A stretch of 64,000 bases of DNA from Ferroplasma acidarmanus Fer1. GTDB lineage: Archaea > Thermoplasmatota > Thermoplasmata > Thermoplasmatales > Thermoplasmataceae. This document shows, one piece after another, positions 54,722 to 56,296 of the stretch. The DNA lies in contig NC_021592.1 in assembly GCF_000152265.2 (NCBI RefSeq), forward strand, positions 682,001 through 746,000, written 5' to 3'. The position numbers were made by a program, and so were the translations under genes. Every line of letters starts with the position of its first letter. The stretch's first letter is position 1. The notes below the pieces were generated by a model. It was not told the DNA's origin and ran no database searches. It saw only the letters and a program-made list of their open reading frames with translations.

Positions 54722-54730
54722 TACATTCAG
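54722..54730 (+). repeat. Target-site duplication, left copy
   Basis: TACATTCAG directly outside the left inverted repeat of the insertion sequence; the identical nine bases are at 56001-56009 outside the right end. An exact 9-base duplication shows a simple, fairly recent transposition event. Confidence 0.93.
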
Positions 54731-54745
54731 GGGTGTGGGACACTA

Positions 54746-54907
54746 TTATTCGTCCCTGGTTATTACAATGTAAACCCTTTTGCCGAGAAATTCCTTAGGG
54801 CAATCCACCTTTGCACCCGATCCGAACTTTGTTACTTTCCTCTCTATGAATCCATATATTCCTTTTATAGAGACCTCTGTTGTCTCATGTATTTCCACTT
54901 TTCCCAT
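54746..54907 (-). CDS. DUF2080-like transposon-encoded AbrB-type protein
   Basis: A 53-residue ORF divergent from the transposase: ATG at 54907, TAA ending at 54746 inside the left inverted repeat. The C-terminal part reads VTKFGSGAKVDCPKEFLGKRVYIVI, the GxSGxVxxPKxxxGKxV pattern of DUF2080/SpoVT-AbrB-like small proteins often carried by archaeal transposons. It may bind DNA, perhaps the element's own promoter. Family match is by pattern only. Confidence 0.7.
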   Translation of the reverse strand: MGKVEIHETTEVSIKGIYGFIERKVTKFGSGAKVDCPKEFLGKRVYIVITRDE

Positions 54908-54911
54908 AGTA

Positions 54912-54937
54912 ATGTATATATACATTGTATATATATC
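54912..54937. promoter_or_regulatory. Shared divergent promoter of the insertion sequence
   Basis: Between the start codons at 54907 (-) and 54943 (+) lies the perfect 14-base palindrome ATGTATATATACAT (54912-54925), followed by TGTATATATATC. The palindrome is ~25 bases before the transposase ATG, and the second AT run is ~25 bases before the DUF2080-like ATG, so both genes appear leaderless with interleaved TATA boxes. The palindrome is also a plausible site for autorepression by the AbrB-like protein. Confidence 0.5.
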
Positions 54938-54942
54938 TATCT

Positions 54943-55983
54943 ATGGGTCTTGTCAGGAGTGAGGACATACAGTATAAACTTGAGGAGATAAACAATATAC
55001 TGGGGAAGAAGTATGTACAGGAACATCCGGAAAAGGGGAGAAACTGGAGAACATACGAATCCGAGTTTTCACGGAGAATTAAAACTGCAATGAAGGAACT
55101 TGATCCCCTTATTGAAAAAGCCGTATCCATTATGCATATTGCTAAAAGGCCAGGGCATCCACATTCATTATTACTTGCCCAGAGGGTGAAATTAATACTT
55201 ATAAAACAGCTTGTTGGCGAATCAAACAGGATGTTTGTTAATATGCTCGATATATTTTCTATGCTTTCAGGCATAGATGTATCATATAAAACAATAGAAA
55301 GGCTATATTCAGACAATGAAGTTGTAATGGCCATATTCAATCTCCATGTATTGTTACTGAAGAATAAGAATATTGCAAATTCAGATGCAACAGGCGATGG
55401 CACGGGCTATTCATTAACAGTAAAGAAGAACTACGAATCCTATGCACAGAGGTTGAAAGACCTTGCAAAGGAGAATAAAGAAATTGGAAAGGAAGAACAT
55501 AAGGATAAAAAATCAAAAGGGCATAGAAAAAGATTGTTTGCATATTCCTTTTCCATTATGGATTTAAGGACAAGGATGTATATAGCCTCCGGAACAAGCA
55601 TGAAATCTGAAAGAAATGCATATGACAATGCAATGAGGATTGTCAACAAAATAGGTATTAATATAGATTCTATAAGGCTTGACAGGTATTATTCATCACC
55701 TTCATATGTAGATAAATTAGGGGATACAAAGGTATACATTATACCTAAGAAGAATTCTACATTGCACGGTTCACATAAATGGAAATCTATAATAAGGGAA
55801 TTTCTCAATGACACTATGAATTACCTTGAAAAGTACCATAAAAGAAGCAATTCAGAATCAGGATTTGCAGCAGACAAGAAGATGCTGGGATGGAATATGG
55901 CACAGAGAAGGGATGACAGGATAGGCAATGCACTGTTATGCACCAATGTCTGGCACAATTTATTCAATATGGGGAGGTATTAG
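54943..55983 (+). CDS. DDE transposase of the insertion sequence
   Basis: A 346-residue transposase. Likely catalytic acids: Asp in ANSDATGDGTGYS, Asp in SIRLDRYYSSPSY, and Glu in KRSNSESGFAADKKMLG, each at the end of a suitable strand or helix. A long N-terminal helical DNA-binding part (residues 1-130) and a lysine-rich insert (GKEEHKDKKSKGHRKRLF) follow the usual plan. Frame intact with stop inside the right end region (55981-55983). ATG 54943 is chosen over an upstream TTG at 54925 that lies in the promoter palindrome. Confidence 0.9.
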   Translation: MGLVRSEDIQYKLEEINNILGKKYVQEHPEKGRNWRTYESEFSRRIKTAMKELDPLIEKAVSIMHIAKRPGHPHSLLLAQRVKLILIKQLVGESNRMFVNMLDIFSMLSGIDVSYKTIERLYSDNEVVMAIFNLHVLLLKNKNIANSDATGDGTGYSLTVKKNYESYAQRLKDLAKENKEIGKEEHKDKKSKGHRKRLFAYSFSIMDLRTRMYIASGTSMKSERNAYDNAMRIVNKIGINIDSIRLDRYYSSPSYVDKLGDTKVYIIPKKNSTLHGSHKWKSIIREFLNDTMNYLEKYHKRSNSESGFAADKKMLGWNMAQRRDDRIGNALLCTNVWHNLFNMGRY

Positions 55984-56000
55984 AATAGTGTCCCACACCC

Positions 56001-56009
56001 TACATTCAG
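56001..56009 (+). repeat. Target-site duplication, right copy
   Basis: TACATTCAG, identical to 54722-54730. Just beyond, AGTATTAAAATACT followed by TTTTT (about 56030-56047) is a terminator-like hairpin that predates the insertion. Confidence 0.93.
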
Positions 56010-56080: not shown

Positions 56081-56296
56081 TCATTTCAGTATAAAGTATC
56101 CTGCACTTTTTTGCCTTGCCACCCTTTTTACCATTTTTCCGTCCATGAGTTCCTTAAGCCCGGAATTAACCAGCGCCTTTCCCAGGGCTACTTTTTTCAT
56201 TATATCGTCGGCTGTTTTCATCTTCTCTTCAGATACGGCGCCCATTGCTTTCAATGAACTGTATATTTTTTCTGCATTTCCTGATAATCCTACCAT
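56081..56296 (-). CDS. Small winged-helix protein
   Basis: A 71-residue basic protein with the layout of a single winged helix: KIYSSLKAMGAVSEEKMKTADDIMKKVALGKALVNSGLKELMDGKMVKRVARQKSAGYFIL, i.e. helix 1, a short helix with the T-A-D-D-I segment, a recognition helix and a two-strand wing ending in a hydrophobic strand. Probably a DNA- or RNA-binding factor in archaea; exact role unknown. It is divergent from the MBL hydrolase gene. Confidence 0.7.
   Translation of the reverse strand: MVGLSGNAEKIYSSLKAMGAVSEEKMKTADDIMKKVALGKALVNSGLKELMDGKMVKRVARQKSAGYFILK

Follow-up and report, generated by a model that had tools for sequence, protein, structure and literature searches.

The window, by which we mean the whole 64,000-nt stretch of Ferroplasma acidarmanus Fer1 DNA that was analysed, carries an insertion sequence, 1270 bp long and intact, at 54731-56000. 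Direct reading confirmed the exact ends and the target duplication that the first-pass annotation had described, with 17/17 bases of the ends complementary and TACATTCAG on both sides (Table 1). The element holds two divergent genes with start codons 35 bp apart. The transposase gene begins with the ATG at 54943, and its stop codon (55981-55983) abuts the right terminal repeat. The second gene is a tiny one of the DUF2080 family that reads away from the transposase, as had been noted; it begins with the ATG at 54907 and ends with a stop codon at 54746-54748. This stop had been placed within the terminal repeat, which is true of two of its three bases and not of the third. Just to the right of the element, at 56081-56296, the window contains a minus-strand frame of 71 residues with sub-threshold matches to HTH_41 and TrmB.

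Table 1. Features of the insertion sequence and its flanks, in window coordinates
Feature	Position	Strand	Remarks
Target duplication, left copy, 9 bp, TACATTCAG	54722-54730		single copy at the G050 empty site
Terminal inverted repeat, left, 17 bp	54731-54747		17/17 complementary to right end
DUF2080 gene, 53 codons + stop	54746-54907	-	PF09853, NF033496; purifying selection in relatives
Dyad TATATATACATTGTATATATA, 21 bp, putative operator	54915-54935		10/10 pairs, p 0.005
Transposase gene, 346 codons + stop	54943-55983	+	D152/E305 invariant, D247 nearly so, 14 relatives
Terminal inverted repeat, right, 17 bp	55984-56000		17/17 complementary to left end
Target duplication, right copy, 9 bp, TACATTCAG	56001-56009		single copy at the G050 empty site

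Seven full-length copies of the element are present in the genome of 1,935,211 bp, of which six are identical across 1270 bp and the seventh differs by a single-base deletion. All seven are flanked by a perfect 9-bp duplication, different at each site (TGTAAAATG at the seventh). In the copy with the deletion (L007, G000:C1:1285799-1287067) the base was lost from a CCC run near the left end, so that the last two DUF2080 residues are altered and the frame is extended through the terminal repeat. A second genome of the same species, G050, was compared at two of the seven insertion sites, and both were empty there, with flanks 100% identical and overlapping by exactly 9 bp. No DUF2080 match was found in the G050 genome, and its one transposase match is weak and stop-riddled. 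Barring precise loss in G050, the two tested insertions took place after the two genomes had diverged. The claim of recent activity is therefore well supported by the near-identity of the seven copies, by their individual duplications and by the two empty sites. Two degenerate relics of a related element, L008 and L009 (77% and 81% identical), lie about 3 kb apart in the same genome (G000:C1, around 1.913-1.917 Mb).

The transposase has the conserved acidic residues of the DDE type (alignment of 14 relatives, Table 1). In the related copy L043 (G311:C10) the nearly invariant D247 is replaced by Gly (RLGRYY), and this copy may be inactive as a result. Matches to IS5-type and DDE models were all sub-threshold: the score was 21.1 bits against PF01609, below the cut-off of 23, and 37.8 bits against NCBIfam IS5_2, far under the curated cut-off of 140, and assignment to the IS5 family by that model was rejected. 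Searches with the transposase gave nothing credible in the PDB (best E 0.99) and no match among plasmids and phages; PADLOC gave no match and PHROGs no consistent family (best E 0.03). The closest known elements appear to be those of the ISA1214 group of ISNCY. Members of the ISA1214 group have direct repeats of about 8-12 bp as well as terminal repeats, and the 9-bp duplications of the seven copies and the 17-bp ends agree with this. The size of about 1.1-1.3 kb, the archaeal hosts and the presence of two genes are also alike. Among the relatives examined, 17 of 42 have direct repeats of 9-12 bp. ISA1214 is named among the families common in Thermoplasmatales in PMC5473848, and PMC12350378 gives ISNCY as present, among four Ferroplasma genomes, only in that of F. 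acidarmanus fer1 (1.94 Mb), which fits this genome.

The small protein scored 58.1 bits against Pfam DUF2080 (PF09853, cut-off 21.5), bearing out the family call made earlier, and 46.8 bits against NF033496 ('DUF2080 family transposase-associated protein', cut-off 22); the Pfam and NCBIfam descriptions of DUF2080 are both without function. With divergent relatives included, 65 of the 389 genomes sampled from the phylum carry a member of the family. The description of the protein as AbrB-like fared less well. The AbrB/MazE model PF04014 matched none of 29 DUF2080 proteins in a Pfam scan, and alignment of DUF2080 to AbrB/MazE by hhalign scored 10.7, where 200 column-shuffled controls reached up to 14.9. 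What favours the label comes from the divergent relatives, two of four of which matched PF04014 below its threshold (E 0.013 and 0.039); when such relatives were added, the AbrB profile comparison gave scores of 19.7 (null maximum 18.3) and 18.0 (null maximum 16.2), over 16 columns only and with 200 shuffles. A short G-N-S...P motif region is common to DUF2080 and the MazE/AbrB antitoxins and regulators, whereas DUF2080 proper does not exceed the shuffled control and has no fold match. AbrB kinship thus seems plausible but unproven. A PDB profile search with DUF2080 yielded no firm link to a known DNA-binding fold, and its sole strong-looking match, to an IgA1 protease (6e-07), proved to be a repeat artefact. 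AlphaFold monomer models reached a pLDDT of 66, or of 82 with 62 sequences, and the latter model, compared with known folds because a swapped-hairpin dimer would mark the AbrB/MazE superfamily, gave no significant match with Foldseek and VIA.

To what extent the small gene accompanies the transposase was assessed by a transposase-alignment scan of GTDB species genomes, from which the best 80 of 109 relatives, nearly all from archaeal MAGs, were taken. Among these 80, 44 are intact in one frame and have enough upstream sequence, one is cut by a contig end and 35 are broken or partial. DUF2080 is present in divergent orientation in 37 of the 44 intact relatives, on the same strand in none and absent in seven, and it occurs in 10 of the 35 broken or partial ones. 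The small gene is therefore a usual accessory and not an essential part of the element, and to the question raised by the first-pass annotation, whether it is always present, the answer is mostly but not invariably. Relatives lacking DUF2080 include three from Nitrososphaerota (L084, L085 and L089) and one, L086, whose archaeal host is unplaced. In L085 and L086 nothing like a small DUF2080 gene was seen. The transposase of L086 is intact, and the element has matching ends of 15 bp and a direct repeat of 10 bp. In L133, which also lacks DUF2080, no recognisable left end was found. In the other two of the seven, both DPANN elements (L104, 1395-1720; L130, 2140-2520), the DUF2080 slot is filled by a different small divergent frame, which presumably resembles the N-terminus of IS1634-type transposases.

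Where present, DUF2080 is under purifying selection, as judged from codon comparisons: of 13 hand-picked pairs, some of them with members in common, 10 yielded an estimate for DUF2080, with dN/dS 0.00-0.15. Nine of these were estimable for the transposase as well, and in every one DUF2080 had the smaller value. The ratios are rough, since several dS values are near saturation. The gene as a neutral passenger is ruled out by this selection. It had been proposed that copies with the gene absent or frameshifted would argue against selection; both kinds exist, in seven of the 44 intact relatives and, for the last two residues, in L007, yet the low dN/dS values stand. One could also imagine a selected passenger of another kind, an antitoxin-like protein directed against host nuclease toxins that aids persistence of the element, with an autoregulatory dyad and only incidental control of the transposase. 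PMC10440598 lists SpnP2/DUF2080 as one of the antitoxins with validated activity towards nuclease toxins, the likeness to the protein studied here being by family name. However, there is no toxin gene inside the element, and in the 37 intact relatives just mentioned the neighbour of DUF2080 is the transposase; we consider such a passenger role quite improbable.

DUF2080 is also found with unrelated transposases. It lies upstream of, and co-directional with, IS66 transposases in L010, L015, L028, L034, L197 and L202 and IS1182 transposases in L036 and L200, all over the NCBI cut-off, and ISH3-like transposases in L012, L017, L019 and L022, which are below the cut-off. These elements resemble that of the window in having the same DUF2080 family and, in many cases, a dyad at the DUF2080 start, and differ from it in that DUF2080 is co-directional with the transposase instead of divergent. 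Adjoining the ISH3-like element L022 is a frame (708-1172) that looks PIN-toxin-like by eye.

The dyad of the window is centred on position 54925, the exact midpoint of the two start codons, and is composed of TATA repeats; its p value was obtained from 200 dinucleotide shuffles. If both transcripts are leaderless, as the first-pass annotation supposed, simple arithmetic places a TATA box about 24-31 bp upstream in or next to the dyad arms. That annotation had built a shared promoter on a 14-base palindrome at 54912-54925. A symmetric site is indeed present, but the palindrome is just a part of the larger dyad at 54915-54935 and was rejected as the whole operator. Genome-wide, a perfect match to the dyad occurs solely at the seven copies, and the nearest other sites have three mismatches.

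Many DUF2080 elements possess a symmetric site on the DUF2080 promoter side. In L019, L022 and L026, for instance, the DUF2080 ATG is immediately preceded by GGATAT-N7-ATATCC, the N7 differing among the three. Upstream of the transposase, a dyad significant at p 0.05 against dinucleotide shuffles was found for 28 of the 55 elements that carry DUF2080 (L051 and L053 being among those lacking one) and for none of the 14 that do not, and the dyad scores of the two classes differ (p 0.0001). L108, one of the 14, contains the core motif together with an apparent internally deleted DUF2080 remnant. Upstream of DUF2080 itself, 35 of 66 regions reach p 0.05 and 31 do not. A further set of 20 loci that had played no part in the earlier comparisons, though one of them, L211, shares its genome with L012, gave a dyad at p 0.05 in 10 of 20, and in five of the 10 with a clear DUF2080; L194, L195, L199, L201 and L203 are the loci with a clear DUF2080 in which the dyad stays below significance. 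When sites were anchored on a centre hexamer C(C/T)AT(A/G)G, ignoring the flanks, 39 promoter sites were obtained in 35 of 51 elements, with 20 sites farther upstream as controls. The outer symmetric pairs are complementary at a mean of 5.4 of 7 positions in the promoter sites and 1.75 of 7 in the controls, and when the 24 distinct sites having four or more pairs are considered, two or more standard pair types occur at five of the seven positions. Thus, the dyad arms vary between elements yet mostly remain complementary. The dyads have a high AT content and coincide in part with TATA-like sequence, and it could be argued that they are nothing but the chance symmetry of AT-rich TATA boxes, that their link with DUF2080 type is one of mere physical linkage and that DUF2080 has some other role. 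The TATA repeats of the window dyad and the 31 of 66 regions lacking a significant dyad would be in line with this. Against it stand the enrichment over dinucleotide shuffles, the lack of any significant dyad in the 14 elements without DUF2080 and the symmetric changes in both arms as compared with the control sites, and we give it hardly any credence.

Comparisons among elements support the view that the sequence of the dyad goes with DUF2080 and not with the transposase. In partial Mantel tests (n=50), distances between dyad half-sites correlated with DUF2080 distances given the transposase, an effect that is small (r 0.168, p 0.0095) and part of which plain linkage could yield as the operator adjoins the DUF2080 gene, whereas no correlation with the transposase remained given DUF2080 (r 0.003, p 0.45). 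The parity of the dyad centre also follows DUF2080. With an arm of 9, one DUF2080 clade has 16 odd centres, two even (L022, L053) and one without a dyad (L036), against 43 even, one odd (L115) and seven none among the remaining DUF2080; with an arm of 10 the counts are 13 odd, one even (L012) and five none in the clade and 38 even, one odd and 12 none in the rest. These counts, like the others made across elements, are not independent by descent, and the clade was taken, after some dyads had been seen, from a DUF2080 tree that gives it a weak fork (85/0).

The tree of DUF2080 disagrees with that of the transposase, although the former is built on 46 columns and has many unresolved forks. An AU test rejected the grouping of the window DUF2080 with those that accompany near transposases (p 8e-5), the group having been picked from transposase kinship after the alignment identities were seen. 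The window transposase is 75% identical to that of L070 and 74, 66 and 69% identical to those of L041, L042 and L043, respectively, yet the window DUF2080 shares only 34-38% identity with its counterparts in L041-L043. With those in L044 and L073 it shares 85%, and with that of the IS66-linked element L015 68-70%. The 35-bp intergenic sequence matches L073 at 34/35 and L044 at 31/35 positions and L041, L070, L071 and L072 at 19-21/35, while at the transposase DNA identity lies between 67 and 75% for each of the six. Other cases are L115 and L117, the youngest swap among those considered, with transposases 92% and DUF2080 proteins 67% identical and no significant dyad in either, and L053 with L125/L137, which share a supported common transposase clade and have DUF2080 from distant clades. 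It thus appears that the DUF2080 gene and its switch site have been swapped between transposon families.

Taken together, the association of the dyad with DUF2080, the covariation of its arms, the coupling of its sequence to DUF2080 type and the selection on the gene lead us to think it likely that DUF2080 is a homodimeric autorepressor which, with its operator dyad, forms an exchangeable cassette holding transposition down. DNA binding, dimerization, repression and the effect on transposition are all inferred from sequence comparison. The element would then consist of two modules, the transposase with the terminal repeats and the repressor-operator cassette. The 53-residue DUF2080 would occupy, as a homodimer, the 21-bp dyad at 54915-54935, a site that spans the core promoters presumed for the two divergent genes. 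Its binding there would silence the transposase gene as well as that of DUF2080 itself, keeping transposition low while copies accumulate. In IS66- and ISH3-like elements, DUF2080 is the first gene of a co-directional pair and the dyad immediately precedes its start codon; self-repression would thereby extend to the transposase gene behind it. The cassette would be exchanged both between elements and between transposase families. The self-regulating switch that had been suggested earlier accordingly gains comparative backing, through the occurrence of the dyad with DUF2080 and its tracking of DUF2080 type, as a reading by comparison.

Alternatively, DUF2080 might be a DNA-binding accessory of transposition, acting in assembly, targeting or end-bridging, or an activator, with the dyad as its binding site. 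Its company with a transposase across a wide range of archaea and with several DDE transposase families would suit such a role. Relatives seem, however, to have moved without DUF2080, as L086 with its intact transposase, matching ends and direct repeat suggests, and the position of the dyad at DUF2080's own start codon in co-directional elements is that of an autoregulatory site; we therefore view an accessory or activating role as unlikely. The arrangement favoured here, an autorepressor acting on a common intergenic region, recalls the Tn3 family, in which tnpR and tnpA are divergent and TnpR is a resolvase acting at res. In both cases a small regulator, DNA-binding in Tn3 and presumably so for DUF2080, diverges from the transposase, but DUF2080 has 53 residues and no recombinase match. 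In the open-licence PMC literature, where the name DUF2080 turned up in one paper, we found no description of a DUF2080 repressor-operator cassette or of its exchange, and in this the present reading goes beyond what is described there for ISNCY/ISA1214 elements.

The comparative evidence gives DUF2080 a testable function and a predicted site in many elements, with half-sites differing by protein type. If the autorepressor reading is true, the cassette would be a portable transposition switch common to several transposase families. By analogy with phage repressor immunity, we would tentatively raise the further, rather speculative idea that archaeal transposons fall into immunity groups set by their DUF2080-operator pairs: resident copies would repress newcomers with the same operator, and swaps across unrelated transposase families would enable escape and a burst, perhaps including one that gave rise to the seven young copies here. 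Such archaeal transposon 'immunity' would, if the autorepressor reading is true, be made directly testable by the swapping of repressor and operator.

A divergent relative of DUF2080, with the motif GNSGRxYLPPDWxGK, was found in five loci (L205, L206, L207, L210 and L213) near a same-strand gene that scores over the cut-off for the benzoyl-CoA reductase subunit bzdN. It is possible that a DUF2080-type regulator is used outside transposons in these loci, two of which (L205 and L213) have a GTAGTTA-type dyad at p 0.05.
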